Positions 10,015-46,489 of a stretch of 64,000 nt of DNA are shown piece after piece. Position numbers and translations under genes: made by a program. Location of the stretch: assembly GCF_018873765.1 (NCBI RefSeq), contig NC_057925.1, positions 57,424,970 to 57,488,969 on the forward strand, in the 5' to 3' direction. Source of the DNA: Telopea speciosissima. Its lineage: Eukaryota; Streptophyta; Magnoliopsida; Proteales; Proteaceae. Numbering within the stretch: position 1 is the stretch's first letter; each line of letters starts with the position of its first letter. The notes beneath the pieces are model-generated. The model was given only the letters and a program-made list of their open reading frames with translations. It was not told where the DNA came from and did not search any database.

Positions 10015-12789
10015 TCAATCATCATCAGGTATTCTCTCCCCATTACATTCAAACCATCTGCGTTCGTTTGCATCAAGATGTTGGGAATTAATTTCTGGGA
10101 TTTCTACTTCCCATCTATTGATGGAAGGTACATGTTTGATCTTCTCCCAATCTTCTCCACCTTCTTTAACCCTCTCAAGGAACTCCTTTGGCATACCCAA
10201 TGAAACTTTCTGTAGTGTTGTGATGTGCCTCAGCCCACCAGGAATCCATTTTAACCCAAAAATGTAACTAAAGTCCAATATCCTCAGGTTAGGCATTGCT
10301 CCTTCTTCCACTATCCAATACCTTAACCAATCAAAATAAGTAAGAGTCAAAATCTCAAGTTTAGGAAAACCCCGTTTAGAGCATTTCATCACTACTCCAT
10401 CGTATGGGTGCCAATCCATATGGAGGTCTTGTAATTGGGGCAGCTGCTCCAGTGTCGCCATCATATCTTCCATTAGATGCGTGCAAGCCAATCGCAGCTT
10501 AGTGAGACTCCTTGGGAAGTCAGGTAGCTCAAGTATGCATCCAACAATGTTGATATCATAGAGATGTTCATGGCCCAAAAATGAAGGGAGATATCCACCG
10601 TATCCATAATCTCTCAAGTATAGGACCTCAAGGCTCACCAAATTGACTAGTGCTCGGTACAATGCCTCTCCGAATACATCCATGAGTCCATCCTCACCTC
10701 CTAGTACACGCAGTTCCCTGAGATCTTTCAACATTTCGAGTCCATCCTCTATCCAGTCTCCTGTGTGAAGACATAGTGTCTGGAGATTGCTTAGATTGCA
10801 GAGGCTTCGATGAGTGGAAAGGCGACTGATCCGCTTCCATTTTCCGCTAGAACATAGAAGATGTCTTAACTTGTCTAATTTTAAAATTTCAATGGGGAGA
10901 GACTCAATACTGGTTTTGTCCAAATTGAGAGTTTGTAGATTATACAAGTTGCCAATCCAAGGTGGAAGAGTTTTCAATTTGGTTCCACATAAGCTCAAGT
11001 ACTTTAGAAAAATGAGCTTTCCTATTTCCTTAGGTAAGGTTTCAATACCTGAGGCATCCTCTAGATCCAACACATTAAGTAGTTTGAATTGTCTACAAAG
11101 AGAAGGGGACATTTCAGTGAAACAGACTACTGAACGGAGAAGATTTGAACTTGAGGAACGACAATAATCTGTAGTATCTTCTTCACTGTAATTAACACGA
11201 TGAAGGGCTACACGACGATTACATTTCAAGGACTTCTCAGGAGTGGAGATGTCAAGAAAGTTACCTTCTTGAGCTTCTGAAATTGCCAAGTTCAAGAGGA
11301 GATCATGAATAATAAATGATTCAGGTTCCCCATTTGATTTCCACTTCGCAACTTGGATCAGGTTCCTCTGCATCAGCTCCTCAAGGCATTCTTTGCCCAC
11401 ATCTTCTATTCTTAAATTCCCTCTAGGTTCCAGAAATCCCTCCGCAACCCATAGCCGAATCAATCTGTCCCTCTGGATCTCAGTATCTTCTGGGAAAGCC
11501 CCAAAATAAAGAAAACAGGGCTTCAAGTGACAAGGTAATTCAGAGTAACTCAAAGCTAATGCCTTATGACACTTACTTGACTCTAGATACCAGTTCACAC
11601 TATCAAACACATTCTTCCATGCAGCAACAATCGGTCTCTTTGTCGATAAAAGGCCTCCCAATACCACAATAGCTAGGGGCAATCCATCACATTTGGCAAC
11701 TATTTTCTTTGCCAGATCTTTCATCTCCTGGTTAAGACTTGCTTCTGTGTCTCTATCAACTGGGGATTTGAAGACCACCTGTAAGAAAAGTTCCAAACTC
11801 TTCTCTTTATCCAAAAGTTGTAGCTTGTGTGAAGGAGCAATGGGATCAGCATACCGGGCTACACCTTCATCACGAGTTGTCAGCAACACTCTACATTGCT
11901 GACTATTGCATGGAACAGGGAAGACACCTTTAAGTTTATCCCAATCTTCTATAGTCCATACATCGTCCAATACGAAGAGATAGTTCTTCTTCTCTCTGAG
12001 AAAATTAGAGAGCCTTGTCTCTAATATTCTAGCCTCCATTGACGCCAATGCCACTTTCTCTGCTTCTGTGAGCACCATTACTTGTTCTATGATATTGTAC
12101 AAAACATCTCTCATTGTATATTCTTTTGATATATAAACCAAGGCTTGACAATCAAAGTACCTTTTCACATCACCTCTGTTGTAGATTTTCTGAGCAAGGG
12201 TGGTTTTCCCCAATCCCCCCATTCCTGTAATTGAGACAACACCAAACCGTCCAAGGGGCTCCTCGTTCATCAGCAACTTCGCCAGCTCCTCTGCTTCGCT
12301 TTGCAAGCCCACAACATCAATGTACTGAAATTTTTTCTCACCTGAAGCTTCAAGTTGATGTGCTGGAGCAGATGTTTGACCCTCCTCAAATTGATGAATC
12401 TCCAAAGGTGATTTCTGATCTGAAAGCTTCTTGAGCTTTCCTTTAATCCCTTCGATTTTCCCTCTTAGCTCATGGGCATCAATTAAAAGTTTTGGGAACC
12501 TGGTGATCTTTCGAACAACACCGGCATTTCGCTTCTGCACCACTTGGTACACAAAACCATCGATGGCGTCTTCTGCTTCGAATGCTAACTGTCTGAGTTG
12601 TCTTACCCACTCTTTCACCCGTTTGCATTGGTTGTGTATTGCATCTGCATCCTTCAGATACGCAGTCATCAGCATGAGTTCTTTGCAAAGTGATTCCACT
12701 TCTGGCTTCACTTCTAAGAGGTAATTAACTTCATCTGTTACTAAGAAGCCTAATTTCTGTACCAGAGCAAGGATCACACTCGCAGCCAT
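10015..12789 (-). CDS. CC-NB-LRR disease resistance protein (NLR-2), complete single exon
   Basis: A 924-aa intracellular immune receptor of the RPM1/RPP13-like coiled-coil NLR class; role inferred from family. Rx-type coiled coil at residues 1-130 with EDAID at 73-77. NB-ARC: P-loop GMGGLGKTT at 189-197, kinase-2 LFVLDDVW at 271-278, RNBS-B CRVLLTTRDEG near 299, GLPLA at 369-373, RNBS-D CFLYFGAFPE at 425-434, and IHD in the MHD position at 494-496. About 12-14 leucine-rich repeats run from 550 to 890, ending in an acidic tail. Length is normal for the class and all nucleotide-binding motifs are intact, so it is probably functional. The ATG at 12787-12789 precedes the conserved coiled coil and has no upstream in-frame competitor. 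It lies head-to-tail with NLR-1, about 7.8 kb away, as expected for a tandem resistance gene cluster. Confidence 0.95.
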   Translation of the reverse strand: MAASVILALVQKLGFLVTDEVNYLLEVKPEVESLCKELMLMTAYLKDADAIHNQCKRVKEWVRQLRQLAFEAEDAIDGFVYQVVQKRNAGVVRKITRFPKLLIDAHELRGKIEGIKGKLKKLSDQKSPLEIHQFEEGQTSAPAHQLEASGEKKFQYIDVVGLQSEAEELAKLLMNEEPLGRFGVVSITGMGGLGKTTLAQKIYNRGDVKRYFDCQALVYISKEYTMRDVLYNIIEQVMVLTEAEKVALASMEARILETRLSNFLREKKNYLFVLDDVWTIEDWDKLKGVFPVPCNSQQCRVLLTTRDEGVARYADPIAPSHKLQLLDKEKSLELFLQVVFKSPVDRDTEASLNQEMKDLAKKIVAKCDGLPLAIVVLGGLLSTKRPIVAAWKNVFDSVNWYLESSKCHKALALSYSELPCHLKPCFLYFGAFPEDTEIQRDRLIRLWVAEGFLEPRGNLRIEDVGKECLEELMQRNLIQVAKWKSNGEPESFIIHDLLLNLAISEAQEGNFLDISTPEKSLKCNRRVALHRVNYSEEDTTDYCRSSSSNLLRSVVCFTEMSPSLCRQFKLLNVLDLEDASGIETLPKEIGKLIFLKYLSLCGTKLKTLPPWIGNLYNLQTLNLDKTSIESLPIEILKLDKLRHLLCSSGKWKRISRLSTHRSLCNLSNLQTLCLHTGDWIEDGLEMLKDLRELRVLGGEDGLMDVFGEALYRALVNLVSLEVLYLRDYGYGGYLPSFLGHEHLYDINIVGCILELPDFPRSLTKLRLACTHLMEDMMATLEQLPQLQDLHMDWHPYDGVVMKCSKRGFPKLEILTLTYFDWLRYWIVEEGAMPNLRILDFSYIFGLKWIPGGLRHITTLQKVSLGMPKEFLERVKEGGEDWEKIKHVPSINRWEVEIPEINSQHLDANERRWFECNGERIPDDD

Positions 12790-16300: not shown

Positions 16301-16869
16301 TCAAGTGCTAAGGTTTATTTTTGCAGTTTCCATTTTTAACAACAGATCTTGAATTTCCGCTTCCATCCTCATTTTCATATTGAAATACTCACGATGTGAT
16401 CTTTCAAGAATCTGTAGTTCTTCAAGCTTTTGTCTGCGCCTTTCCTCGGACTCAGCCAAACATAACTTTGTAATTCGGCTCCCATATTCTTCTTCAATCT
16501 TTTCATTCTTAGCAATTGCAATGCGTTTCAGGCCTTCAGCCTCTCTTCTTGCATCATCTGCCCGTGCTTGGAACATTTTTGCCTCTGCCTGTTTGATTCT
16601 CACAATGCTCTCCAGCTCATCAATGACTGGTTTCTTTTCTACACTCTTCTGCAACTGTGAATCCTCATTCGACCGACCTACCCGATCCCAATCCAATATG
16701 GGAACCCCACTACCAGCATTTTCTAGTTGTGGAGTAGTCTTTTCAGTTGAAACAGATGTCAGCCACATAGCTTCTTGGCTTGGTCCAAAGACCCCACTGC
16801 TTAACTCTGGGTTCCTATGGGATTGTTCCTTTCCAGAAGCAGAGGTGTTGCCCAACTTGGAATCAGTTT
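16301..16869 (-). CDS. OBE4: OBERON4-like, exon 2 (C-terminal coiled coil)
   Basis: Last coding exon. The acceptor reads CTCTAATTGCAG on the minus strand. The split codon G|AA gives Glu, joining EFLT to ETDSKLGN. The exon codes a heptad-rich coiled coil ([19 protein letters not shown] ... [19 protein letters not shown]) and ends at TGA 16301-16303. This coiled coil mediates OBERON dimerisation in the family. It is 14.7 kb away from exon 1. Confidence 0.88.
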
Positions 16870-19800
16870 CTGCAATTAGAGGAAAAGTAAAAGATGTAAA
16901 CAGCAATGTCCTCGTCTCAAACTCCAAAAGTATATATAAGCATTGCAAATGATTATGACAAAGACAAGCATGTCTGAAGTTGTAAAACACTTATGCAAGC
17001 CTGAAGTAATGATATCAGACCAGCACATACATGATTGAAGACCACAAAGTCCAGATCACAGTGCAGTCTGTGAAGAAGCTTCCGTTTCGATGTCATGCAG
17101 GTCTACAGTTGTGGCATGCCCTACATCAGTCTTCCCAAGGGCTTATAAATAAGGGTATACCCAGTGCATTAGGCTCCCGCCACTGCGGTGTCTGGGGAAG
17201 GTCATAATGTATGCAGCCTTACCCCTGTTTTCGCAGAGAGGCTGTTTCCAGACTCGAACCTGTGACCACTTGGTCACAATGGAGCAACCTTTACTGTTGC
17301 ACCAAGGCTCGCCCTCTTCCCTAGGGCTTATAAGCCATACTAATTCTTCTGGAGTAATAATTCAGTTTTGAATACGTTTCTTATTGTGTCCACTTTAAGT
17401 TCATATGAGAAGAGTTACTATCTAGTTTTTACAGAGAATCAAACCATGATCTATAAGCCTCTAATGCCTGGTTGTCTAGCCCTACAAATATAGGCTAAAT
17501 CTTGTCAGCAGAGGAGGAAATTACTTGAACGAGTACAATGTTTTCAGAAGTTTATTTTGAAGCCCTATTTAATGCAAGGTTTGGAAGGTTGATTCCAAGT
17601 GTTGACATAGCAGTTAGCACTTGCTCAAGATAAGTCTTATGATGCTTCTCCAAGGTTAGGAGTCCCCAACTCAATTGTTCTTGACATCAAAGTTAATTCT
17701 TGAAAGTAAAACCTTATTTACACTCCTACTCTTAGTTGTCAAGGTGTCACCTAAGCGACACCTAGGTGTCCAGGCGCTTGACAGTGAGCTGGGCGGCCTA
17801 ATGCCAAAAGTATGCTTCGAAACAGGAGCACGCCTTGTAACCCTAAGCGTCGCCTAGGCGTCTGAATTGGAGCCATGGTCCACTTTGGGTATTGGGCGCC
17901 CGCTTTTATTTACAATATTTTTTTTATTTTTATTATATAAAGTGATTCTAGTTCTAACTTCTCTATTCGTTTATGTACAGGTTCTAATTGAGGTGAGAAG
18001 CATGGAATCATTATGTTTTTGTTTTTAAAAAAAAAAAACCTAACCAAAATCAAGTTCATTTCATTGATTCATTCACACTATTGCTATGCAAAAGATAACA
18101 GAAGTCTGGAGACCCCAAGTACGTGGCACACTGGCACCCTTCCTTCCAGGCAAACACCATCTCTAGCGGCAGCGGTAAGTTATTTTATTTTATTATTCCT
18201 CTTTTTTTGCTACTGCAGTTTCTACTGCCCTGCTTGGTCAATCATTAAGAACTCAAGTACACAAACGTACAAGCCTATAGTACAAATTCCTTTCAAATAA
18301 AGTCATCTATGTTACATGTTTAATTTATTGTGTTTATTTTTTCTGTCTTAGCTGTTTTGCAATTTGCAATTTTGCATTCTCATTTCTCACTGGTTTTACT
18401 TGCTCTTATAATATATGTTCATGTTGAGAGTGCTGGAATGATCTTGATTACCCTTTTCATTCTTGAATTAAACTTAAGAAAAAGAAAAAAATTAGTTAGC
18501 TGTTGGCATATGTTGATTGAATTTGCTATTGCTGTAAAGTATAATGGGCTGTTAATTTATTCATGTATGTGTAGCTTACTGGAGGATGATGTTTCACAGA
18601 GAATTAAAGTAGGATGGATGAAGTGGAGACCAAAGTGCTGTGTGACCGACGTATTCCTTTAAAGCTGAAAGGGAAGTTCTATAGGACTGTTGCTCGACCG
18701 GCTATGATGTATGGGGTAGAATGTTAGGCAGTTAAGAAGTGTCATATTGAGAAGCTATGTGTAGGCAGAGATGAGGATGTTACGATGGATGTGCGGAAAA
18801 TCTAGGAAGGATAAAGTACAGACTGTGAACGTATTAGAGCTGACTAGGGAGTTGCCTTGATCAATGACAAGCTATGAGAGAGTCGTTTAAAGTGGCATGG
18901 TCATGTCCAAAGGAGGCCTAGGGACGCCCCAGTAAGGAGGAGTGATATGATTCCGATTGAAGGAGCGAAAAGAGCTAGGGGCAGGCCTAAAATGACCATA
19001 GTAGAAGTTGTGAGGAAGGACTAGACATGCATAGTCTAGGTCTTGTACCAAGAATGACCTCGGAAGAGCCTGTTGGAGGGCAAGGATCCATGTAACGAAC
19101 CCCATTTAGCTGAGATTCTCCTGGTATGCTAGGCTGTGCCTCTTTCCTCTTACTTTCTTTTTTCACTTTCATTTTTCACCTTTCAGCTTCCATTTTTCTT
19201 TTTATTTTCCATCTTTCATTTGTCATTTCCCATTTTCATTTCTCATCTCATTTTTCCATCTCTCCATTCCCCTTTTTTTGTTTAGACCTCAGTCTTCTCT
19301 ACTTTGGTTTGTTTGGATCCATGTCGCCGGCCCAATTAAGTTGGGATAAGGCTGAGTTTGTTGTTGTTGTTGTGTAGCTTAGTAGTTAATTTATTCATGT
19401 ACGTGCAGCTTACTAGCTAATTTTATTAATGTATGTGTAGCTTACTAGTTGCTAGCTTTAATGGGCTGTTAAATTGTTCAAAAATCATACTTGCTGAAAA
19501 CTTTTGTATGCACAGTGTCTAGGCATCACCTAGACGTCCAGGTGCCTTGTCAACTAGGGTCGTTGTGGCCTTGCCCCCAGGCCCCTCTCTCCAACACCTT
19601 GCGTCGCCTAGATGCCGTGACAGCTATATATGCTTCCTTAGTTCTTTATATCCTATACTTTGTTCATTATTTGTTGGTTCTCTCATATTAAGTCCTTACT
19701 AGCATAATTATTTCATGTAGAATTGATATGGCTTCTACGTTGATTCTTGATGTGGCTTAAATGTTGATAGAGAGAAGAAATCGCATAAGAAAGAGGGGGG

Positions 19801-22800
19801 AGGGGGGCGGAGAGTGCGCACGCACATAGCCCTCTGGCTACTCAAACCAGAAACTCAATTCATTCTTCAAATATATTCAACGATGGGGAGTTATACCATA
19901 TATAAAGAGAAATAAAAGACTACTAAAAATAAAGACCAACTTTCTAACTAGGAAACTAAGAACAATTGGGAAACCAAAGTTCAAACATAGCCTACGTCTA
20001 AAATAAACTAAAAGACATTATTTCCCCAAATAACATAAATCCTACTAAATTCCAAAAACTCAATCTGGACCCGGTTCATCTCCATCTGGATACCAAACTG
20101 GGTTTGGGTCGGTCCAAGGTAGTGTATCTGCATCAATTCCCCCGGTGTTGAGAAAAACTCATCCACGAGTTTTGTAGAATGGTAGAAATAAAAGCTTACG
20201 AGCGGGGGCTATAGGTTCCCTATTTGCAACTTGAAGAAAATCCAAAATATGAAGCTTTGGAGGTGCATCCATTGATGGAAAATCGTGGGGAAGAACGAAC
20301 TCATGATGTGGAATAGCTTTCACTACACTGGAATCCGTCGTTACTTGGTCCACGATCTGCTCATCTTCCGTTGCCACTATTTGTTGTTCTGATTGAGGCT
20401 GTATCACTGGTGCTGCCTCCTTTGGCTTGGAACAAACATCGTCAACTAACCCATGAAGAATGAATGTATGGGGCATGTGAAAAGGATGTAGAATGCACAA
20501 GTTTCCATCACAATCAATGATACCTTTTCATTCTGCTAGCCACTCACGACTCAATTTAATAACACGCCAAGGATAATCAAACACTTCACAATGAGCTCCA
20601 TCACAATACTAAGAAACGGAGAATTTGACGAATACATAAGAGTGAATAATGATCTGGTCGTTCTTGGATAACGTCTCTACCACAGATCGTGAGACGAAAT
20701 TGTTGTTTTGTCGTTCATCAATAAACAATATGGTAAGCTTTCCATTAGGCAACTAAACTCTGAACTTGAACACACAAGAATCCACGGCCAAGGTTGTATT
20801 CGGAATCGGTATAGGTCCACACAAATAAGAGAATATGTAAGTAAGAGTTAATGGCAAAACAGTGAATAGATGAAGTTTATGACACTAATGGCAAAACTGT
20901 AATTATGGGAAGTGCAGCTAACACACAAGGGGATAGAGTATCATGTATAGGGTAAAGGGCAAACTGGGAAGTGGGTGAAAAAAGGGGATAAAACAGAATT
21001 AATAAAAACTGAGGGGCAGTTCAGGAAAGAAAAAGAAAAGGAACAGAAGAATCATCGTGGGGTGGGGGATATGTTAGGAAATAAAAGGAGGAAGGGAATC
21101 GATTGAACAAAAGAGGGAGAGGGGGATGTTACCGTTACTGGAACCAGAGGAAAAGTGTGAGGAAAATGATGGAAGCTGAGGAAGACGATGGGGCTGGGTG
21201 GGAATCGACTTTGCAGTCAGAACAGAACGCCAACGAGAATGCGAACTTCAAACTGCAGTCCACGATCCGACAGGAGCAGCGTCCAATTTAATGGAAATAT
21301 CACTTGGTACAAAGGATTTTGTTCTCCGGGAGGTGGATGTTAGGAGCAGTGGTGGTGTCATCTGAAACCAGAATCCAGGTATGCAATTTCTTCTTCTTTT
21401 TTTCCTTCTTCTCTGCTTCTCGATTTTTCTCTTCTCTTCTTTCTGTCCCGAACTCTCTTCTCTCTGCACTTTTTTTTTGTTTGGTTCTGGCGGAACCAAG
21501 GAAGTGCGCAATGGTGGGTTAGGGATTATGCTCAGGGAATCGAAAGAGATGGGATTGGGGGTTTGTCGGTGGGAATCTCTGGGGTGGGGTGGGGTGGGTC
21601 GACGGAAGGAGTGATCTTTTTTTTTTTGTGGGAATCGCAGGAATGGGCTGGGTTAGGGTTTCAGTGGATGTCAAAGGGAGGGATGGGTTTAGGTTTCACT
21701 GCGTTGGGAAAGAAAAAGAGGATAGGGTTGCTGTGATGTCACAGGGGATGTTATCGCAGATTTTTTTTCACTACCGCTGGTCGCAGAACAGTAACGAAAG
21801 ATAGGGGATAGAGAAGAAGAAGAAGAATGGGATGAGAGAGATGGACAGGGAAGGAGATGGATACTTCGGCTCTGATACCAAATTGGTGGAGGGCCGGTTA
21901 GGAGAAGAGGGGAACTTGGTAGAAATCAGAGTTGCAGGGAGGAAGAGAGAAGAAGAGAGAGAGGGGGGGGGGGAAGAGTGCTCACGCGCACAGCCCTCAG
22001 GCTACTCGAACCATAAACTCAATTCGTTCTTCAAATTTATTCAACGATGGGGAGTTCCACCATATGTATAGAAAAATAAGACTCCTAAAAATAAAGACTA
22101 ACTTTCTAACTAGGAAACTAATTCAAATTAGGAAACTACGAACAACTGGGAAACCAAATATCCTACGTAGCTAACTTTAAAAATAAAGATAATAAAATAA
22201 TCTAAACGATATCATTTCCCCAAATAACATAAATTCCTAAAATCCTACTAAATTCCAAAAACTCAATCTGGACCCGGTTCATCTCCATCTGGATACCAAA
22301 CTGGGTTTCGGTCGGTCCAAGGTAGTGTATCTGCATCAGGCATATAAGCATAATTATATCATTGCTAAATGCTAATTGCTATGCTAGATATAATGGAACA
22401 ATGGACAGCCGGATACATAAAATGATGAAAAATACTAGGGTGCCTAGACAACGCCTAGGAGAGCGCCTTGTCAACTACTGCTTAAGCAAAGGTCGCCCAG
22501 GTGCTGTGACACCTATGCTCCTAGTATTTCATTTTATTTTGAACTCAATACCACTATTTGTTTCTAGTCAATCAAACCCCCTTCATTCCAAGGTCACACA
22601 TTACCCTTAGTATTTGTTCGATGTATGACAACTGGAACTGAAACAAAAAGATATAAAGGACTTAGAAAAGACACTTGCAACACGCAAAAAGGAGATTTTG
22701 AATATCTGCAAAAATTTAAATTAAAAACCTATGCTTCTTTACTCGGACATTCCCAAGATAGCAATAGGTGACAGTGCCTAATGGAGATGCTAAATGTAAC

Positions 22801-25800
22801 CTCTTTTACTAGTTTGGGCGGATTAAACTTTCCCTTAGATCCCTGCCAGCCTGTCTCACATCAATAATTTATAGCATTCTTTTTTATCTAACTTCTTAAC
22901 ATGTATTATGCGCAGTGTGTGAAAGATCACATTACATGAGTCTATTGCAGATTTTATAACCATAACAAAATAAATATTTATATGAAAAAAAAAAAAACTA
23001 TTCTCCACTTCCAAATATCTGCAGTTCAGGTCAACTTACTCACTAGGCCCTTCTCTATGCTCTTAGATGACCAACAAGGTCCAACTTGGAGGCTCCAATA
23101 GTCCAATGTAACAAGCCTGAACCCAAAAGCAACTACTAGTTGGATTTTCTGTGTGAATTAAGGGTAAAATATTCAATCAGGCTTTCTGAAATCCAAGATT
23201 AAAGTGTATAGGTTTTCAAAGGATTTAAATTTAGGACTATAAAATTATGCTGAACTTCATAAATTATGGCCGGGGTTCTAAACAAGAATTGGAGCTAATA
23301 GTTTTTTTAGGATTTATCAGTTGCAAGGACTGATGGATTTGATGAAACAAATAGAAAATAGTAAATCAGTATTATGAAACACAGAAAAGACTATCTTGTG
23401 GGCACGCACTGTCATATAGCGTTCATGAGATTATAGGGAAGCTTGGTCCTATCAGGTAGGGTTTTAATTTTATTTATTACTAATGTCCCTCAATTGGAGA
23501 CATCAAGGGTGTTTCTGGAATCTGGGGCATAATACCATCATCCGGGGTCAGAATTCAATCTTGTCTATTAAGTGCTAGGATTAGTTTTTGATTGTCAATT
23601 TAGTCATTCTCAGTTTGAGTTTTCATTATTTTTATTATTAGAAGATAAGATTGACTTTAGCAACTACTTCCGACACTTCCTTTAGTCAAAGTTCCCCAAA
23701 AACTGATCTTCATGTACAGTGGTTATTACCTCCCAGTATAAACTGCATTAAAATTCTTTTGAGAAGGCAATATTTTTCTAGTTGAGGGGTGAAAAGAACT
23801 TATTTTCTATGCATTTCAAGGCTTTGAAGATGACTTCCTTGTCAAGGTTTTTAGTGTATTTAACTTTTTTTAATTTGGTGTGCTAATACTAAAGTCTGAA
23901 ACCCATAACATCCTTCTATTCCAAGAGCCTGCATCAATCTAAGTACTCATGGCAGTCATCAAAAAATGTCAAGAGGTTGACAATCTAGTGGTTAAGAAAG
24001 ATTCAACTATTTTGGAATTGAATCAGAGCAAGGGGTATTATGATAGACTGTATCCAATCAGAATTTAGCACTTTCTAGGCAACGGCAACATAAGGATGGA
24101 TGACATCATGGGAAGTCCTCATGTTGTATACTATTTTAAGCAGTGCTGCCGATTTGCCTCCTGACAGATCTCCTGAAACATTCTAAGAGATTTATAGCCA
24201 CAAAACCCATAGAACCTATCTCTATCTGCCTATCTACTGGATATCTCTATTTATTTTCTCAGGCATAGTCCATCCTATAATTCACATAACCTTCATCACT
24301 ACCTTCAATAATGCAACCTAAATGGCTAGATCCCTATATAAATCAACCATAGTAATAGATTACTACATTAAATGGTAAGGCTTATCAAATTAGAAGCATG
24401 CATATTGGAAAAGATGCTAGATACTGCAGGCAAACTGTTGTATGTTATAAAAGAGGGGAAATAAAAAATAACACTTGGTCGCCTAGGAACCCCTCCACCG
24501 CCTTGGGTCACCTTGCTGCCTTGACGACTATGACTATTTTTATAAGATAACAGCTGATATTATAGAACTAAGGGGGCAAAAGTGGCCTCCATGGGGAAAG
24601 CAAACATGACACAAAAATGTAAGATCCATCAGGTAGTCCAATACAACATATAAGTCACCAAAAAGAAAAGAAGGAAAAACAAGAAGGAAGCATAGTTATC
24701 AAGGCGTCGCCTTGGCGTCCTGGCGGTTTTCAAGGGTCAAGGCAAGCAGTCGCCTTAGTGGTAAGCCGTTATTTTATTATTTTTTATTTTATTGTATTTC
24801 CTATATTTTTATTGGTTTTGTGTATAAGATTTTCACACACTATATGATACACCGAATCATTTAAAAAACAAAACAAAATAAAAAATATGTAAAATCTTAT
24901 TTCATTTCTTAGATTTTCATAGGCTTGTATACATTATTTTTGTACATTGTGTTACATAGAATCACCTAAAGCAAATAAAATCGAAAGATTCTTGAGAAAG
25001 TGAAACCCTCAACTTCCTGCTCCAGAGATGCCAGCTCTTGCTCAACGACTCCAGCGCCATTTCCTTCGATGATGATGAATATTGACCACGAACCCTACTC
25101 CGGTGACAGACTCCGACCTCGAATCCTTGCTGCGATGTTCTATATTTTTTTTCTTCTTCTTCTTTCGATTTTTTTTTTCTAGTGACTACTATGTTACTCG
25201 ATTCTGTTACCTAATTCCTTTTTTATTTTTTTTTAAATATTCTACTTCTTCTTTTTCCTCTTTCCCTGCGACACTTCTCTAAAGAAGAAAGGAATGTGAG
25301 AATCGAATAAATAATTGAAGGAACTGGATCGTCTTCTTCTTCCCCTTTCCCTGCGACTCTTCTCTGAAGTATTCTTTGTTCCTCTTTCAATTGTCAACTG
25401 TTTGTTGCAAAATTGATTGTGTTGGTTCCCCTTTCCCTGCTACACTTCTCTGAAGACAATCATGATCTCTAGATTTTTCAAAAACAAAGGCATGCGCCCT
25501 TTCAAAATTTCTGAAACCTTCAATGTTCTTGTTTTGTTGCGTTTTTTTCCCCTCCTTTTTCTTCTCATCTTCCTTCTTCTATGTTGGTGGCAGTAGTGGT
25601 GGCTGCTGGTGGTGTGGCCGGTGGCTGTAATTCTTTGGTATGTGATTTTGTTATTCAAATCAAATTGTGCAACTGTTAGTATAAGTCATGTAATTTTATC
25701 ATTTTTTGATTATATGATTATGTAATCTGAGATTATTTGATTTTGTGTTTCACTTATTTTGTAATGTTGTGATTATATGATTATGTAATTCCTAGATTGT

Positions 25801-28800
25801 TGACTTCATTTTAATGTTTTATGGATGGCTTGTTGACTTCATTGTAATGAGTCTAACGACTGCTTTTAATGATTCTTTAATATTTATTTACCATATAAGT
25901 AAAACTATATAATTTTTAATATGCTATTTGTGTTAGCATTTAGGGTGGAAGAAGGAGAAGAGAAGGAAGAGATAGAGAGCAGCCACTGTTTTGGTTTTGT
26001 GTGTTATGTCTCAAAACAAGAGACTAACATGCTTATATTGAAAAGAATATGTAATTACACACAGGCCCTTGGCCTTATACAAATGACATAAAGAATACAC
26101 AAAAGAGGGGTTATGTACATATATACCCCTAATACAACTATTCTTAACACTCCCCCTCAAGCTGGGTGGTATATGTCATACATCTCCAGCTTGTCTAACA
26201 TAAAACTAAAGTGATGAGAGCTAAGTCCTTTGGTAAAGATGTCTGCCACTTGTTCATTTGTCTTCACAAAAAGAGTACAAATAGTCTTAGAGTCTATCTT
26301 CTCCTTGATAAAGTGTCTGTCAACCTCAACATGCTTTGTCCTGTCATGTTGAACTGGGTTGTGAGCAATGCTGATGGCTGCCTTCTTATCGCAATACAGA
26401 CTCGAAGGTTCAGTCGTCTCAAATCCCAATTCTTGAACAAGTTTCTTCAACCCCAAGATTTCACACACACCATGAGCCATGGCTCGAAATTTTGCTTCAG
26501 CACCTGACCTAGCTACCACAAGCTGCTTCGTACTTCTCCAGGTGACTAAATTTCCCCCAACAAAGGTACAGTATCCAAAGGTGGATCTTCTATCAGAAAT
26601 AGACCCGGCCCAATCAGCATCTGTATATACTTCAATTCTCAAGCGACCATTCCTAGAGAAGAGAAGACCTTTTCCGAGGTATGACTTCAAATACCTGAGG
26701 ATCTTGTAAATTGCATCAAGATGTCCCATCTTAGGTGCATGCATAAACTGACTCACCACTCCAACAGCATAGGTGATGCCAGGCCGGGTGAGGGAGAGAT
26801 AGATTAGCTTACCTACTAATCTCTTATACTTTTCAGCATCTACAAGAGGTTCACCACAATCTTCCCCTAGTTTGTGGTTCTGCTCAATAGGGGAGGAGAT
26901 TGGTTTGCATCCTAAGTAGTCTGTCTCTGTAAGTAGATCAAGAACAAACTTCCTTTGACAAACATTGATCCCTTGCTTGGATCTTGAAACTTTAATCCCC
27001 AAAAAATACTTCAATAGACCGAGATCTTTGATCTCAAACTGCCGAGCCCAATAAAGCTTAAGCTTTGAGATTTCAACTTCACTGTTTCCCGTGACCACAA
27101 TGTCATCAACATAAACAATGAGTGACGTAATAGTGTTGCCCTTCCTTTGTATAAACAATGTGTGATCAGCTTGACTTTGAGTATATCCATTCTGTAGGAG
27201 GGCTTGTCTAAACCTTTCAAACCAAGCTTTAGGAGACTGTTTGAGTCCATAGAGAGCCTTCCTAAGTCAACATACTTTCCCATTGTCACCTGGATGCTTG
27301 AACCCAGGAGGAGAGTGCATATATACTTCTTCTTCTAGGTCACCATGTAAGAATGCATTCTTCACATCAAGTTGGTACAATGGCCAATCAAGATTTGCAG
27401 CCATTGAGAGAAGTACACGAATGGAGTTATGCTTGGCCACCGGAGCAAAGGTTTCTTGATAGTCAATGCCATACATCTGTGTATAACCCTTGGCGACAAG
27501 TCTTGCCTTATACCTCTCCACAGTACCATTAGACTTGAACTTGACTGTGAATACCCATCTGCATCCAACAGGGATTCTCCCTTTAGGGAGTTCAACTAGG
27601 TCCCAAGTGTGATTCTTCTCAAGAGCCAACATCTCTGTGTTCATTGCTTCTCTCCATTTTGGATCTGCCATAGCCTCTTCTACATTCTTGGGAATAGAGA
27701 TGGATGAGATAGCCACAGTGAAGGCTTTACCTGTAAGGGAGATAGAATCATAGGAAACAAACTTGGCAATGGGATTAGTACATGCCCGAGTTCCCTTGCG
27801 GTGAGCTATAGGAAGATCTAAGTCTGAGAATGTAGAAGTAGAGGAAGGTATACCTGTCTCGATGGATGGAGGCTCAGGATGAGGAGACGAAGAAGGATTT
27901 TGGCAGGTCTTCTATATAGGAAGCCATGAAGAAGGATTTCTCCTATCCTTCGTATACACCAGTAGCTCCCCTCTGTTCTCTGTTCTCTTGTGCACTAGGA
28001 GGCTCCCCCTCAACAACAGTATCCACAGAATTTCTCTTTCCCTTGTCAATCTGAAAAGTGGAAATAGGGACAAGAGAGAAAAAAGGAAATGAAACAAACT
28101 CGGGAACCTCTTCACCCTCAACACCACCACCAAGAGAGGAACACTCCCCCTGAAGAGGTGACTGAAAATACGGAATGGTTTCAAAGAAATGAACATCTTT
28201 GGAGAGAAGCCACCGACGAGTAGGAGGATGATAGCATTTATACCCTTTGGAGGTGGAGCAATACCCAAGAAAGATGCACTTTAGGGCCTTAGGATCCAAT
28301 TTAGTGCGGGCAGATTTGCTAATATGTACATAGCAAATACAACCAAACACCCTTGGAGGAAGAGAAAAGGAAGAAGACCGTGAAGGTAGGACATCAAGAG
28401 GAACCTTGAAGTTTAGGACACTAGATGGCATGTGATTAATAAGAAAGACAGCAATGAGTAGGGCATCAGACCAAAAAGTTTTTGGAACATGCATGGTAAA
28501 CCAAAGGGATCTAGCCACTTCAAGGAGATGGCGATTTTTTCTTTCAGCCACCCCATTTTGTTGGGGGGTATCAACCCAGGCCACCTGATGAATAATGTCA
28601 TGGTTAGAAAAAAAGTTTTCCAAACCACTATACATATACTCCCCACCTTTGTCAGAGCGGACAATTTGGATCCGAGTGTCAAATTGGGTATACACTAACT
28701 CACAAAAATTTTTAAATGCAACATAGACATCACTCTTATGTTTCAAAAGGTAAACCCAAGTAACCCGAGAAAAGTCATCAATGAAAAAACAAAGTTGCTG

Positions 28801-31800
28801 AAGCCACGCAAAGAGATAACAGGGGAAGGCCCCCAAACATCAGTATGGATAAGGTGAAAGGGTGAAGTAGATCTATTAACATTAGATGGATAAACTGTTT
28901 TACAACTTTTGGCAAATAGAAAAGGTTCACAATAAAAAAACATGAGTGACAGGAAAAAAAATAAATAAATGTTGCAACAGTTTACTCATAACAGAAAAGG
29001 AAGGGTGTCCCAAACGACGATACCAGAGCAAAATATCCTCCTGAGTACGTCCACCTTCTTGCCCCCAAACATAAGACTGAGCTTGCACAACAAGGGAAGC
29101 ACCAGTCTCCAAAACATACAAGCCGTTAGCCTCACGACCACTGCCAATCACCCTCCTCGTCACCAAATCTTGGAAAAGACAATGGGTAGGAAAGAAGGTG
29201 ACAAAGCAGTTCAAAGATTTAGTCAATTGGCTAACTGAAAGGAAGTTAGTGGCAAAGTTGGGAACATGAAAAACAGACTTCAAGGGTAAAAATGGTGCAA
29301 CTTGGATATCTCCCTTACCAGAAATAGAGGAGAAGGAACCATCAGCAATTTTTACCTTATCTTTCCCAGAACAAACAGAATAAGAATTATACAGCTGAGA
29401 CCTACCAGTCATATGATCCATGGCACCTGAGTCAATGACCCAAGGTGTGGTACCGGAGGAGGAAGATGCCTGCAGTGCGGTGAAAGGAGTAGTAGCAGAG
29501 GAACCATCCAGATGGGCCACAATCCAGCGAAATGCAACAATGTCTTCTTTAGACAGAGAGGATGGATCAGATTCAATGACTCCAACATGAGCCTTAGGCC
29601 CCTTCTTCCGCTGCCCTTTCAGTCCCCCAGATGAACCAGCAGAGGGCTTCCTATGGAGATCCCAACAAAAGTCCTTCGTATGCCCAGATTTGCCACAATC
29701 GTCACATAAGAATCGACCCTTTGCAGCCCCCTTATCAGCTCCCTTAGTGGAGTCCTGAGGGGTGGAAGAAACAAGAGCAGAATGCTCAACAGTGGGAGCA
29801 GTCCCCATGGCACCCCTACGGGTCTCCTCACTCTGTAGATATCCACACACCTCCTCCAGTGAGGGAAGACTTGGGCGGCCGAGGATTTGTACCCTAAGAG
29901 GCTCAAAGTCAGAATTGAGGCCTCCAAGGAGAAATAAGACCCTCTCTTTCTCAAACAACCGGTGCATTTTGACCTCCATCATCAGGACACAACTGAAGAT
30001 CTCTATAGTGGTCATACTCCTCCCACAGGCCCACAACAAGACTGTAGTAGTCAGAGATGCTTTTATCACCCTGGCGCAAGCTAACAAATCTGTTGAAGAA
30101 GTTGGTACACTTTTGTAGAGTCCCCAACTCGATCAAAAATACGGGCCACACTGTCCCAAATGTCTGTGGCAGTCTCCTTGCCCATAAATCTTCTTCCAAT
30201 CTCAGGCTTCATGGAGAAAAGAAGCCAGGCCATCACAAGGGAATTCTCAGTGTCCCATTTGGAGTACCCTTGTTCGGTAGGAAGGGGGGCCTTGATGCTA
30301 CCATTGATGTATCCCATCTTCCCCCTGCACCAAAGAATCAATTTCATGGAGCGAGACCAATCCAAATAGTTATGGTTCTCAAGTTTGGCAATAGGAAGTT
30401 GGATATTGGGGCTCTCAAAGTGAGAAGGGAGAGATGGAGCTATTTCCACAAGGGGCAGGGGTGTTTCAACATTTTTCTCACCCATATTGAAGCTTTAATC
30501 GACCACTTAGAATAGGGAAACAGCAGTACTTCAAGCAAACAAATATCTCCCAAAACAGTAGGCACAAAATAGAGCAAACAATAGCCAAAAAAGGCTTAAA
30601 AACACTTGTAGATCTTCAAAAATTGCTCAAATAGCAGCGGAGTAAGGATGAGTAATGTTCCTTACCAAAAAACAATGCAAATAGACCATAAACAATGGTC
30701 AAACAAAGCCCTATTGAAGACCAAGGTGCCAATCTAGACTCAAGCTGGCGGAAATTCTGGGCAGAACAGCCACCACGAGATTCCTTGTGGATGAATGGAT
30801 GCTTGGAAAAAGCTTGAGAGAAGCCAAGGAGATCAAAGAAGATCCCCAAACGAAACTAGAGTACTAAGAAGCACTCCATTTGGATTCCAAACCAAAGAGA
30901 AACAACTTGGAGAAGATAACCTAACCAGACCTTCAAACAGCAGCAGCAACCAGGTGAAAAAAAACCTTCTTCACACTCCAAACTTCCTTCAAACACTTGC
31001 AAACAGCAGGATAAGCTCTGATACCATGTTAGCATTTAGGGTGGAAGAAGGAGAAGAGAAGGAAGAGATAGAGAACACCCACGGTTTTGATTTTGTGTGT
31101 TATGTCTCAAAACAAGAGACTAACATGCTTATATTGAAAAGAATATGTAATTACACACAGGCCCTTGGTCTTATACAAATGACATAAAGAATACACAAAA
31201 GAGGGGTTATGTACATATATACCCCTGATACAACTATTCTTAACAATTTGTGCTAAATAAAATGGTTATATAGAAAAAGGAACACTAGAATGCCTTGTCC
31301 GCCGTGGCGACGCCTTGCGGCTGCCCTATCGCCAAGGCGCTTAGGAAGGCCCTCAAACGCCTTGGTCGCCTTGCCGCCTTGATAACTATGCAAGATTGCA
31401 AAGAAGCATTCAAAAGGAAATAATGCACATACAATCACAAGGTCATAAATATGTGCATAATTGTCAACTGTTTACAGAATAATAAAGAGTACAATAAACC
31501 AAACCTTACAATGAAATTCTTTGTTTACATAAGCTAGAAAACTTACCAGTCAGGAACTCCATGATTTGATTATAAACCTCTGAGAGATTGGATTTGTTAT
31601 TTTCTAGTCTTGCCTGCATCTTCTCAGCGACATTGTGAAGTTGTTTCCCTCGCACATCATTACTAGCAGAAAAAATCCTCTTCACATATTCAAGTTCCTT
31701 GGAAAGAGTCTCATCTTTCCATTCCCTTGCACAGGTCTTGAAAACTTCTTTCACAAAGCCAAACATCTCAGAAGGGTGATTGCAAGCAAGACAGTGGAAC

Positions 31801-34619
31801 TGCATCTCAGTTGTTCCTTGAGCCCCAGTGACACTATGCCCGTTTCTGATATAAGATTCCCGTAAGCCACAACTCGTATGGCACCAATGAAGACAGAAAT
31901 CACACCCAACCCAACTACAGGTATTGGATGCCATATCAAACTTCGAACAAACAAGGCACATACAAGCACTGCAGAAGCCACTTTTCTGAGCACAAACTTT
32001 GCAATCGCATTCATCCACTGGAAGGGGACTCCCGCAAGCAAGATTTCTGCACTTCAAGTTCAGAAAGATCTCAGCTAAATCAGGAGGAGAAGAATCCTTG
32101 GCTCGGTAGAGAAAATCTTGAAGACCAGTTTTAAAAGCCACCAAGATCTCCAACTGAGCTCGATTACACTTTGATAGCGTCTCTAGTGTAAGGTCAGATC
32201 TACTCTGCAATGCTTCCTGAAATGCACGTAACTGCCCATGTTTATCTTCATTCACTATCATCTCACGGACACTCTCCTTTAAACATGCTATGGACTGTTC
32301 AGTCATTTCATGAATTCTCTTGGCCATTACTTGTACTGGCTCTAAAATTATCATGGCAATAATCCTCTCTACAAAACCAGTTCCACCTACAACAGGCTGT
32401 TCTATCTCCTTCTGACTACTACTGCGAAATAAACTACCACCTCTTTTCTCTCTCATTACCCATTTCTTATCCTCACTATACTCTGGTCTAACTTCAAGAG
32501 AGACAACACCATGTGCATGGGATTTGATTTCATCTTGGTTCCTTGACAGTACACCTGTAAGCTGTCTTGGCCGACTTGACTGCCAATCCAAGGCAACAGG
32601 TACTCCAGAGGTTCCCTCAGAATTCCTATTATGATCTTGAACTTGTGCAGTGTGATGATTTAAAATGCCTTGAGATGACTGAGATGCATTGCCATTTTGT
32701 AAAATCCTTGGATACAGGGGAACTTCCTTGCGCTTAGGGTCATTTGACGATTGCACCTGCCAGGAACCATGAGAAATTTGATCAACTCCCTTAAATATAG
32801 GATGACTGCCAACTGATTGTTCATAGTTGTCAAATGAATTCTGTGTGAGAGAACAGCTGGGGTTATGAACGAATGGCTGGGAACCTGAAAAGGAAATTGA
32901 TGCAGTAAATCCATCAGAGCCCGTCCAAAATGTGGAAGGTACAGACTGAACACTCCTTATACGACTGGGGGAACCAGGAGCTGGCTTTGGATCAAGGGAA
33001 TGCAGTTCTAATGATACATTTGGCAAGCCCAGAGAAAGGTCAAGTGGCTCCATTTTAAGCATCCCATCTTTTTGCTTATAAACACCAGAATTGTTTGTCT
33101 TCTCTTGTCTTGTTGCAGCAAGACTAGAGAACAACTCAAAACCCCTACAACTTGGCCCTCCCGTAGCAGCTTCTCTTCTGACTACTACATCTTCTTCCTT
33201 CCATAGGCCATCTTCCATGGAATTAGCTTCATTATATGAAGAAACGGCAAGACTTTTTCCCTTATCCTTGGAATTTTGAGTGGACTTTTCTGTTATGAGG
33301 TTCAAAGTCACCTTAGGTGTTCCATTTGCTTTTGCAACTTCCTTATTCGAATTGAGCAAATCGATGTCCTTCACATCAGCTTCCAAATCAATACCTTTGC
33401 CCTCATTCCGCTCCTCCTCCAAAGGCAATGGTTTCTCAGCATCCTCGTCCTTGGTTGCTTCGTATCTATCGTGGTCTTCTGGTGTACGGACACAAGGGCC
33501 TACAGACTCACAATCTTCTCTTGCATTTTCTCCTTCTCTACCTACATTATCTGCCACTGTTGCTTCTTTGCTTGTACTCAATTCATTATCAGAGTTCCCT
33601 AGACGTTCTGGAACCTTATCAATCTCCTTCACCACCTCTGTCACAGGCTCTCGTGTCCCATCCTCCCGGATTCCATCACAATTATCTTTACCGTTGAGCT
33701 CTATCTTCTCTTCAGCTGAAGATTCCCCTCCTTTCTCCAAATCCATCTCTGACTTGATGGCATGCACACTCTCCAATTCCTTGCAATTCTCAGTGCACAC
33801 TCCTGGAGCTTCAGCATTTTGGTTGGGTTCAGATTCAGGTTTAGGTTCAGCTTCAACTTCAGGTTCTTCATGTTCAGGCTTGGGTTTGTGTTTAGGTTTG
33901 GCTTCCCCTTCAGGTGCAGGTGTAGCTTCGTCTTCGGGTTGCAGTTCCCCTTCTTCCATCTCACTGCTGCTTCCACTCTCTTTGTGCACTTCTTCGTTCT
34001 TCTTCACCTTAGTACTCTTAGACTGCTCCCCACCAGAATCCTTCGAACAAGGAGACGACTTCAGAACATCTCTCGAACCCTGCGGCGATCTTACATTTCC
34101 TCTTTCCTCAGAAACAACTCTTCTTCCCCTCCCAGTGTCGACATTAAACCTAGCATCTTCGTCAACATCCTTGCTTCCCCCGAACCTCCGCCACGATGAA
34201 ACACTCTCTTCTCGCCGCGAACGGTCCCTCTCTGACCTAAACCCCTTGGGGAACTCCCGCCTAGAGCCACAAAAGCTCTCCGACCGATGAATCCTGTCAC
34301 CACTATAGGAAGTCCGAGGTGAAGAAAGTGAAATACCCCTATCACCGCAATCCCGATAACGATCAAAGCTCTTCCTCCTCTCAAAACCATCAGAATCATG
34401 ATCAAAACGCTTCCTCAACGATCTGGAAACCTCACGATCATCTTCTATTGATCGATCGTAACCAGACGACGAAGATAAACCTTTCCGCCCGTTTTCAGCT
34501 TTCGAATAAAATCGCCGATGCGAACGATCTGGTTCTTGATCCCTTCTACCCCAATCTTTCAAAACCCCTCTATCCCCAATCGAATCGAGATCGTCATCAT
34601 AAGATCTCAACCTTTTCAT
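16301..34619 (-). CDS. OBE4: OBERON4/TITANIA1-like PHD-finger protein, join of 31547-34619 and 16301-16869 (minus)
   Basis: Nuclear PHD-finger protein; in Arabidopsis OBE3/OBE4 act with OBE1/OBE2 in embryonic and shoot/root meristem establishment. Exon 1 (34619 to 31547, 3,073 nt) ends CTGACTG before GTAAGT. Exon 2 (16869 to 16301, 569 nt) starts after TTGCAG. Together they make 1,214 codons with matched phase, a protein of 1,213 aa, close to the OBE4 size and far longer than OBE1/2. The N-terminus [10 protein letters not shown] is followed by a charged Arg/Ser-rich region and a Pro/Glu/Lys repeat at about 220-265. The Cys/His-rich PHD-like zinc finger is at about 856-945 (starts CRNLACG, includes [30 protein letters not shown]), then the OBERON helical region. 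The C-terminal coiled coil in exon 2 begins around [21 protein letters not shown]. The ATG at 34619 fits the family start, so an in-frame upstream ATG at 34700 is not used. Confidence 0.9.
17149..17315 (-). mobile_element. Au-type SINE
   Basis: Minus strand reads GAGCCTTGGTGCAAC (tRNA-like head with box A), GGTCACAGGTTCGAGTC (box B), AAACAGCCTCT, GGGTAAGGCTGC, CTTCCCC, GGGAGCCTAATGCACTGGG. This order is that of the plant Au SINE family. It is flanked by an 18-bp target duplication CTTCCC(A/T)AGGGCTTATAA at 17131-17148 and 17316-17333 with one mismatch. Transcription would be by Pol III from the internal boxes. Confidence 0.9.
17727..19632. mobile_element. TIR element of the AAGGCGCCTAGGCG family, interrupted by a LINE
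   Basis: Left end AGTTGTCAAGGTGTCACC with GCGACACCTAGGTGTCC; right end inverted (GCGTCGCCTAGATGCCGTGACAGCT). The ends are rich in CCTAGGCG words, like 22440-22520 and 24688-31392. The LINE at 18579-19370 is inserted inside. No transposase seen. Superfamily not assigned. Confidence 0.55.
18579..19370 (+). mobile_element. 5'-truncated LINE 3' end with (TTG)n tail
   Basis: Plus-strand pieces [52 protein letters not shown] and KRARGRPK match the C-terminal part after the reverse transcriptase in plant L1-type LINEs, with several stops. The element ends in GTTGTTGTTGTTGTTG, a typical tail of this group. The 11-bp direct repeat TGTGTAGCTTA (18568-18578 and 19371-19381) is the likely target duplication. 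Confidence 0.8.
19762..20135 (-). repeat. 3' LTR of the non-autonomous element
   Basis: Left (3' in element sense) LTR, about 374 bp, matching 21884-22338 with several indels. The right-hand limit (TGCATCA then AATTCCCCC) is clear; the left-hand limit is approximate. Confidence 0.7.
21884..22338 (-). repeat. 5' LTR of the non-autonomous element
   Basis: Right LTR, about 455 bp, starting TGG three bases after the primer-site complement and ending CATCA. It contains an additional GA/G-rich stretch and an insertion near 22120 relative to the other LTR. Confidence 0.75.
22440..22520. repeat. Fragment of the CCTAGGCG TIR-element family
   Basis: GTGCCTAGACAACGCCTAGG, CGCCTTGTCAACTACTGC and GCTGTGACACCTATG resemble the right end of 17727-19632. 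Isolated end fragment; a further small piece (CGCCTAGGAACCCC...CTTGACGACTATG) lies at 24480-24540. Confidence 0.45.
22525..24475. other. Intronic stretch without recognised features
   Basis: AT-rich, stop-rich sequence in the OBERON-like intron. I see no gene, terminal repeats or tRNA-like heads here. Confidence 0.4.
25931..26149 (-). repeat. copia 3' LTR
   Basis: 219 bp. Left on the plus strand, 3' in element sense. Followed by the polypurine tract complement CTCCCCCTCAA. Confidence 0.95.
26157..30485 (-). pseudogene. copia gag-pol polyprotein, broken by frameshifts and a stop
   Basis: Reading leftward: gag from 30485 ([11 protein letters not shown] start); a CCHC knuckle [14 protein letters not shown] near 29690; a protease site WVIDSGA near 29430; GAG-pre-integrase WYRRLGHPS near 29010; integrase with [15 protein letters not shown] and [12 protein letters not shown] (28836-27943); reverse transcriptase from about 27716 with [12 protein letters not shown] and YVDD; RNase H with TDADWAGS, to 26157. 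Frame changes occur in gag (about 30085 and 29975), between gag-pre-integrase and integrase (about 28940 and 28815), and between integrase and reverse transcriptase. One TGA at 27267-27269 replaces the Arg codon of the family's VCRL motif. It cannot make a full polyprotein. Confidence 0.93.
31015..31026 (-). promoter_or_regulatory. copia primer binding site (tRNA-Met type)
   Basis: Minus strand TGGTATCAGAGC, complementary to the 3' end of initiator tRNA-Met, immediately inside the 5' LTR. Confidence 0.92.
31027..31245 (-). repeat. copia 5' LTR
   Basis: 219 bp. Preceded on the plus strand by the primer-site complement. It would carry the element promoter, directed leftward, antisense to nothing and sense with the host gene (both minus). 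Confidence 0.95.
31547..34619 (-). CDS. OBE4: OBERON4-like, exon 1
   Basis: Coding part of the first exon, 1,024 codons plus one base. It holds the disordered charged N-terminus, the PHD-like finger and the helical region after it. The donor GTAAGT at 31546-31541 is strong. An open frame without splicing would add about 13 residues and stop at 31506. Confidence 0.9.
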
Positions 34620-38344: not shown

Positions 38345-38416
38345 GGGTGTTTGGTCTAGTGGTAAGATTCTTGCTTTGAGTGCAAGAGGTTGTCAGTTTG
38401 ATTCTCGCAACTACCT
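38345..38416 (+). pseudogene. tRNA-Pro pseudogene with TGA anticodon
   Basis: Aligns along its whole length with the intact tRNA-Pro at 50492-50563. Anticodon stem CTTGC/GCAAG is kept, but the loop reads TTTGAGT, changing TGG to TGA. The acceptor GGGTGTT/AACTACC has two mismatches and the T stem is disrupted. Probably not functional. Confidence 0.8.
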
Positions 38417-42674: not shown

Positions 42675-43288
42675 AAAAAACATGAGTTGTAGCGAAACGT
42701 AGAACTTAATGAGTTACAAAAAATTAAATAAGATTAAAAGAAACACATAATCTAGCTATGTGCTTGCACACACCAAATCTAATCAGATTAAAAGGAAAAA
42801 TTAATTTTACGGGCCTATGATAAATATACACTAACCAAATATGTTCATATTATTGGTTTCCTCCAATGTTTTAGTCTTGACATTTAAAATTGAATCATCA
42901 AAATTATTTTCTCTTATCATAACAAAATGCATCTTGTTCAAGATAGGAAATTATAAAAAAACTATGTTAATTAACCACCTTAGGGCAATGAGTTTTATTG
43001 ACAAATATAATGCCAACAATGCATAATAATTTTATGTATACGCTGCTCACAACAAATGCATTCATTTTACTAACATTATGTCATGCATCTTATAATGGTA
43101 ATGGCGTTTCTGTGTTTTTTGTTATCTATCATCAAAAATGATATTTAGGGCTTATTGGTTACTTGGGCTGGATGTCAATCCATTGGAAGAGTGGACATTG
43201 GGTCTAACGAGGAGGGTCACACCAAGGAATGGACCCAATCTTGGAAAGGATTAGCTTTTATTTACAAGTGATGAAAGTGGTCCAAATT
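42675..43288 (+). repeat. Cassette upstream block, copy 2
   Basis: Shares blocks GAACTTAATG, TTGGTTTCCTCCAATGTTTTAG, AACCACCTTAGGGCAATGAG, GACAAATATAATGCCAACAATGC and GTGGACATTGGGTCTAACGA (only representative words quoted) with 48140-48876, the inverted 51480-52140, and 62885-63960. No coding frame is conserved. Confidence 0.8.
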
Positions 43289-43682
43289 AGGGGTGTCCAA
43301 AGCTGGTCTGCACTAGTAGGCTTGATTGGAATCGACCAGTTAAAGCCTGAAACTGGACCAACCAGCTAGTAAACTGACCGGTGTTGGGCCTAGACTGATC
43401 ATGATTTACTCAGTTGTAGCCCTATGATAGCCTGATCGACTGAGACCCATCGACAACGGTAACAAACCGGGATCGACTGTTTTAAATTGTTTACCTGTTT
43501 AAAGACCGATTATAACTCAATTACAAAACGGTAATTGATCAATCGAATATAAACATGTTCATACAAAGCCTATGAGACCCCCCGATTAACTAAACGATGT
43601 GGTAACCATACATGGTCATAAAGTGGTGGAGACTGATTAGGCCTGATTGAAACCAACAAGAATTGAGCAGTTGACAACCCTA
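43289..43682. mobile_element. MITE with AGGGGTGTCC... ends
   Basis: Left AGGGGTGTCCAAAGCTGG, right inverted CAGTTGACAACCCTA. The interior is rich in ACCGGT/GATTG words. The same element sits at the same place in cassette copy 3 (48876-49146), so it was there before that duplication. Confidence 0.6.
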
Positions 43683-43690
43683 GTGCAAAT

Positions 43691-43825
43691 GTTTTTTTTT
43701 TTTTTTTTTTGGGTGGGATGGGGAGTAGGGATAGCTATCGCCCCTAGGAGAGTTGAACATATAACCTCTTAATTGTGAGGTATTGGTACTTAACAGTTGC
43801 CAATTGAACTACTCCTTGGGGTGTC
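43691..43825 (-). mobile_element. tRNA-derived SINE with poly(A) tail
   Basis: Minus strand: AGGAGTAGTTCAATTGGCA (box A like), GAGGTTATATGTTCAACTC (box B like), ending in poly(A) (T run 43692-43711). Family not named. Confidence 0.6.
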
Positions 43826-43884
43826 AAGCTGTTTCGATTTATGTTGTAGTTGCTGGTGTCCTGCGTCAAACATAATCATTCAAA

Positions 43885-46035: not shown

Positions 46036-46064
46036 TATTATTATTATTATTATTAGGGATAAAG

Positions 46065-46225
46065 TTCTATGCATTGGGGGCGCTGGGTGTGCCTAGACAA
46101 ATGGGGGATAGGTGAAATGATCGGCCTGCCCCTTGAATGACCCAAATCCCGTCCCTGTCCTGGCCCATGCATGTGTCTAGGCACAGCTTGTGCCCAGATG
46201 TGCTCCTGAACATAAAACGTGCGCC
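46065..46225. mobile_element. Palindromic MITE, about 160 bp
   Basis: GCTGGGTGTGCCTAGACA on the left and the inverted TGTCTAGGCACAGCTTG on the right, with AAGTTCT at the outer end. Inserted next to the Pack-MULE. Confidence 0.55.
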
Positions 46226-46239
46226 CAATATATCTGACA

Positions 46240-46463: not shown

Positions 46464-46489
46464 GAGCAGGAAGATGGAAGTATAACATA

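Follow-up and report, generated by a model that had tools for sequence, protein, structure and literature searches.

A transposon-filled intron of 14.7 kb predicted within an OBERON4-like gene of the waratah Telopea speciosissima

Transposons within introns may affect the transcripts of plant genes, and the closest described case for the locus presented here is the Arabidopsis gene RPP7. This gene encodes a nucleotide-binding leucine-rich repeat (NLR) protein and has a copia retrotransposon, COPIA-R7, in its first intron. RPP7 transcripts can end in the 5' long terminal repeat (LTR) of this element, and do so upon loss of EDM2, the short transcript being described as non-coding (PMC7529245). 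Intronic heterochromatin is reported in more than 10% of rice genes, and two cases, intron 7 of Arabidopsis IBM1 and the last intron of rice OsJMJ718, sit in chromatin genes, either inside the part that encodes the domains or downstream of it (PMC7145194). In grapevine, one survey covers 2,697 large introns (>3 kb) made up of more than 80% repeats, with about 6.5 times more copia than gypsy (PMC3058033). Here, we describe a stretch of 64,000 nucleotides of the waratah Telopea speciosissima (contig NC_057925.1; hereafter the window, in whose coordinates all positions are given). Its sequence very probably contains an OBERON4-like gene with an apparently conserved phase-1 intron that was enlarged by transposons and is spliced out whole to give a full-length protein. 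The intron resembles the large grapevine introns in being expanded by transposons, rich in LTR elements, with more copia than gypsy and with long interspersed nuclear elements (LINEs) (PMC3058033); the lineage is different, and we found no feature that sets the waratah intron apart in kind. It shares with RPP7 a copia element within an intron. Unlike in RPP7, the intron comes after 3.07 kb of coding sequence, so that an early transcript end would yield a protein with the PHD domain only, and the waratah case is known from sequence alone. The IBM1 intron holds organelle DNA, whereas that of waratah holds transposons and is heterochromatic by hypothesis only.

The gene lies on the minus strand and its model has three parts:

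31547..34619, minus strand: coding part of exon 1, from the ATG to the first base of the split codon; corresponds to residues 1-1024 and the first base of codon 1025 of the public protein P0001
16870..31546, minus strand: phase-1 GT-AG intron of 14,677 bp, predicted from the splice motifs, the reading frame and the junction in homologues
16301..16869, minus strand: coding part of exon 2 including the stop, with the Oberon_cc domain (protein residues 1091-1201)

An open frame runs from the ATG at 34619 to 31547. The donor at 31546 reads TG/GTAAGT (the slash marks the junction), and the acceptor, which ends at 16870, has a polypyrimidine tract followed by GCAG/AAAC (16870/16869), after which the frame continues to a stop ending at 16301. 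The joined frame has the split codon G/AA in phase 1 and encodes 1,213 amino acids, i.e., 1,214 codons counting the stop. An earlier note on this DNA had proposed coding parts 14,677 bp apart with fitting splice sites, phase and codon number. The motifs and the intron length bear this out, and the joined translation is identical over all 1,213 residues to P0001, "protein OBERON 4-like isoform X2 [Telopea speciosissima]." Hence, a public protein already contains the join between the two exons.

The domains of the joined protein fall on both sides of the intron. Pfam places PHD_Oberon (PF07227) at residues 857-980 (E=5.9e-38), encoded in exon 1, and the coiled coil Oberon_cc (PF16312) at residues 1091-1201 (E=3.3e-45), wholly within exon 2. 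Since the split codon is residue 1025, the intron separates the two domains. The closest relatives among the matches listed are OBERON 4 proteins, which puts the gene in the OBE3/OBE4 (TITANIA) branch of the OBERON family on the basis of a similarity search, not of a tree. The search covered residues 760-1213, over which the identity is 90% to the Macadamia protein P0002 and 83% to a second waratah protein, P0004. A search of solved structures gave no match at E 0.001.

The position of the intron can be followed in the homologues. A single protein search, scored on residues 760-1213, gave 726 matches, and the best 120, P0001 included, were aligned with MAFFT; the counts given here refer to these 120 proteins. 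In every one of them the sequence continues past the junction. The residue of the split codon is E in 58, D in 47, G in 8, A in 3 and V in 1, the exceptions being a gap, an S and a C, so that a codon starting with G fits in 117 cases, as predicted if the last base of the exon is a conserved G. In addition, an insert of 31 residues falls exactly at the junction in the Tetracentron protein P0013; it begins with KLPVFSQ after the G, and reading into the waratah intron gives KFSSLCKQ after the G. The insert looks like an intron (starting GGTAAR) that was retained in the annotation at the same junction. Together, the G-first codon and this insert suggest that the phase-1 position between the PHD domain and the coiled coil is probably old and apparently conserved. 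Thirteen of the proteins, 1,142-1,262 amino acids long, come from a source labelled "lgn," whose longest contigs measure 4.0-5.0 kb; they fit spliced templates, given the kind of source that we presume this to be. For Arabidopsis OBE3, PMC4873020 still assigns residue 518, which follows the PHD domain, to the "predicted first exon"; this would agree with an intron beyond that point.

The sequence upstream of exon 1 has a second potential start. An ATG at 34921 opens a frame of 39 codons whose stop overlaps a donor-like GTAACT at 34802. A predicted splice from this GTAACT to an AG at 34621 (182 bp) would join the upstream frame to MKRLRS and add 40 residues. The upstream peptide resembles the start of the Nelumbo isoform X2 P0007, the sole protein with an MDNS start among the best 120 of 726; the alignment score of 49 was reached by none of 1,000 shuffles, in a comparison picked after P0007 had been seen. 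The region 34921-34621 is perhaps an alternative N terminus, and perhaps the unseen isoform X1.

The largest component of the intron is a copia element nested within a second transposon with terminal inverted repeats (TIR):

25931..31245, minus strand: copia LTR retrotransposon of 5,315 bp in the sense of the gene, identified by its LTRs, target site duplication (TSD) and Pfam domains
31027..31245, minus strand: 5' LTR of the copia element, 219 bp, TG...CA; the sequence resembling a primer binding site (PBS), TGGTATCAGAGC, comes next, at 31026-31015
25931..26149, minus strand: 3' LTR of the copia element, 219 bp, with 6/219 differences from the 5' LTR (97.3% identity)
31246..31250, minus strand: TSD of the copia element, CAAAT, on the 5' side; its partner is at 25926-25930
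24691..31390, no strand assigned: TIR element enclosing the copia element, with a perfect TIR of 16 nucleotides, CATAGTTATCAAGGCG, at 31390-31375 and 24691-24706; about 1,380 bp when the copia element is subtracted

The paired LTRs, the TSD, the PBS and an integrase ahead of the reverse transcriptase identify a Ty1/copia element. Its separate open frames match Retrotran_gag_3/_2, Pol_BBD, gag_pre-integrs, SH3_retrovirus and RVT_2, with rve only under its cut-off. A scan of five separate frames, all in the sense of the element, gave only copia families. The frames are interrupted by stops and frame changes, and the element is defective as it stands. For the PBS-like motif (at most 1 mismatch), 2 matches were also reached in 5 of 100 shuffles. 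The divergence between the LTRs is about 2.8%. At the rate of rice LTRs (1.3e-8) the insertion would date to around 1 million years, and at the slower rate of trees to several. With at most 3 mismatches allowed, the TIR-end pattern is found 4 times where 0.42 would be expected, and 4 occurrences were reached in 1 of 100 shuffles; no TSD was recognised at the ends of the TIR element. The copia element sits 145 bp from its outer end. The nested copia element of the earlier note is thus supported by LTRs, TSD and Pfam domains, and its host turns out to be the TIR element. Two more degenerate copies of the TIR end, with 3 mismatches each, are found in the same intron (17731-17746 and 24517-24532), and further AGGCG-rich islands were seen by eye near 19540-19620 and 22440-22510. 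These extra ends and islands could perhaps reflect repeated insertions of a single family of DNA elements.

The other recognisable elements are smaller or more decayed:

19787..22338, minus strand: decayed LTR element (2.55 kb) resembling a large retrotransposon derivative (LARD), in the sense of the gene and without Pfam domain, identified by LTRs, a PBS-like motif and a polypurine tract
18560..19380, plus strand: putative LINE remnant, antisense to the gene, with many stops and a (TTG)n tail; the left boundary is approximate
17149..17314, minus strand: short interspersed nuclear element (SINE) of 166 bp, with a 19-bp TSD at 17333-17315 and 17148-17130 (one mismatch)

The LTRs of the LARD-like element (22338 to about 21950, and 20135-19787) are about 80% alike; the PBS-like motif is at 21880-21869 and the polypurine tract directly before 20135. 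No TSD was recognised by eye, the end of the 3' LTR being decayed. These features agree with the LTR element previously proposed for this intron. A 122-amino-acid open frame within the element (20162-20527) has no Pfam match. Two non-LTR elements, an Au SINE and a LINE, had also been proposed. The SINE is backed by its 19-bp TSD (mean of 0.00 in 100 shuffles), and we presume it to be of the Au type. The LINE gave no Pfam match in six frames; it is putatively identified by the (TTG)n tail and a 3'-end sequence, and is presumably RTE-like. The elements counted make up 10,275 of the 14,677 bp of the intron.

These observations suggest how the locus could have been formed. Between the parts coding for the PHD domain and the coiled coil, an intron whose phase-1 position is apparently conserved would have been enlarged to 14.7 kb through successive insertions: a TIR element that was later hit by the copia element, besides the more decayed LTR element, the SINE and the LINE remnant. 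The elements would be passengers, and the pre-mRNA would be spliced over the whole intron to produce the full-length protein. That such splicing takes place in vivo, and is the main outcome, is something that we infer from the sequence, and several points should temper this reading. The ranking of the homologues used residues from either side of the junction, which favours continuous proteins, and their continuity is thus partly built in. The acidic residues at the split codon may also reflect constraints on the protein, and 3 of the 120 sequences misfit (the gap, the S and the C). Furthermore, the name of P0001 looks automatic, its transcript support and genome coordinates are not visible, and its label "X2" implies another isoform that we have not seen.

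One could therefore ask if the two coding parts are separate transcripts, or if their join is an accident of assembly or annotation, with exon 2 belonging to another gene. The distance between them is large, and gene prediction is known to break up genes that contain large introns (PMC3058033). The 34th full codon of exon 2 is an in-frame ATG that precedes the coiled coil, such that the frame alone allows a separate short product. However, its open frame has no in-frame ATG ahead of this codon, the coiled coil is the OBERON family's own partner domain, and the homologues listed, including a waratah protein, are continuous over the join. Given this continuity and the identity of the joined protein to P0001, we rejected this alternative, which we regard as hardly credible. 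The intron could also be kept for a function of its own, regulatory or as a nested gene (a host exon, a non-coding RNA, an enhancer), since around 30% of it (14,677 minus 10,275 bp) is not assigned to any element. Yet, outside the copia element (16870-25930 and 31246-31546) there is no Pfam match above the cut-off in six frames, and the intron has no Rfam match at the gathering score and no tRNA. On these grounds a nested host gene or structured RNA was rejected, and a retained function seems improbable. Two antisense matches below the cut-off in one frame of 31247-31546 (KIAA0319_N, E=0.0061; BRCT_3, E=0.023) look like chance. The reading that we favour remains that of an OBERON4-like gene with an old intron grown by transposons and spliced whole.

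A further possibility adds to this reading without excluding it. The intron could be heterochromatic, with a complex of the IBM2/EDM2 type masking cryptic poly(A) sites within it. In this case, loss of silencing would let transcripts end in the intron, e.g., in the sense-oriented 5' LTR of the copia element, leaving a PHD-only protein of 1,037 amino acids and the loss of OBE4 function. The sequence at the exon border shows what such transcripts would encode:

31506..31546, minus strand: read-through frame, in which 13 residues are completed by 38 bases of the intron and followed by TAA at 31508-31506

Reading into the intron thus adds 13 residues before the stop, and the protein predicted for transcripts ending in the intron lacks the coiled coil. 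We consider this possibility less likely than not, even if a need for such silencing against early polyadenylation is plausible by analogy. RPP7 with COPIA-R7 is its closest precedent (PMC7529245), and in OsIBM2 mutants of rice transcripts are polyadenylated prematurely within heterochromatic introns (PMC7145194). Both LTR elements are in the sense of the gene, the 5' LTR of the copia element starts 301 bp into the intron, the read-through frame stops early, and the copia element is the most CpG-depleted segment measured (observed/expected of 0.24). On the other hand, the LARD-like element (0.62) and the TIR element (0.82) are not depleted relative to exon 1 (0.51), and the 6 differences between the copia LTRs include 4 transitions, 1 in CHG, 3 in CHH and none in CG context. 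Hence, a methylation footprint, with strong depletion in the copia element only, was not retained as support. Sense AATAAA motifs are enriched in the intron (24 against 8.3 expected; 24 reached in none of 200 shuffles), but they are matched by 23 in antisense, which tells nothing specific on early termination, and a strand bias of poly(A) signals was dropped as an argument. None of the 24 sense motifs is in the copia element, whose 5' LTR has a single AATATA among the nine variants sought. The orientation of the elements also deserves less weight, because intronic transposons in rice are reported to show no orientation bias (PMC7145194). The same study gives 93 of 454 affected rice genes with heterochromatic introns, against more than 10% of all genes; its authors regard the numbers as possibly underestimated. 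Overall, the sequence proxies for silencing are weak and mixed. It is an unlikely extension of this idea that the silencing state of the copia element, some 300 bp into the intron, sets the ratio between full-length and PHD-only OBE4 through alternative polyadenylation. If true, a regulator of meristem and embryo would be controlled by a transposon, and the short form would be a natural equivalent of the Arabidopsis allele obe3-2.

This allele (wen9) is informative on what early termination could cost. Like the product predicted here, obe3-2 ends beyond the PHD domain, with its stop at residue 518, and lacks the C-terminal part. It differs in being a nonsense point mutation in OBE3, not an intronic event, with the transcript approximately halved, so that C-terminal loss is not the sole possible cause of its phenotype. 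Alone, it has a wild-type look; it acts as an enhancer of wus alleles, and obe3-2 obe4-2 seedlings develop no further (PMC4873020). A cost of early termination in waratah is therefore plausible by analogy, if the gene acts like OBE3, as we infer, and the second copy, P0004, could buffer it.

In the titles and abstract openings listed from the literature on OBERON4/TITANIA, IBM2/EDM2 introns, Proteaceae introns and intronic transposons, this intron is not described, and the word "Oberon" is absent from the main text of PMC7145194 and PMC10241880. The intron is of an ordinary kind for plants and not very unusual; it is a new example rather than a new mechanism. In a basal eudicot, it illustrates cleanly how transposons have enlarged an intron whose position is apparently old. 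For the field of heterochromatic introns it yields a prediction, namely that early ends at this locus would cut exactly between the PHD domain and the coiled coil, which makes it a testable case outside Arabidopsis and rice.

Finally, the rest of the window contains a few other features. Plus-strand frames of 43001-53001 gave no Pfam match; within this region, a frame of 170 amino acids rich in proline and serine (44542-45054, plus strand) has no Pfam match. A tandem array with a unit of 371 bp (2.3 copies, 85% matches) occupies 56566-57431, and there are two tRNA genes, tRNA-Ser(TGA) at 38345-38416 on the plus strand and tRNA-Pro(TGG) at 50492-50563 on the minus strand. Around 3.5 kb downstream of the stop of the OBERON4-like gene, positions 10015-12789 hold an NLR gene of the CNL type, which encodes 924 amino acids in a single frame with Rx_N, NB-ARC, winged helix and LRR domains.

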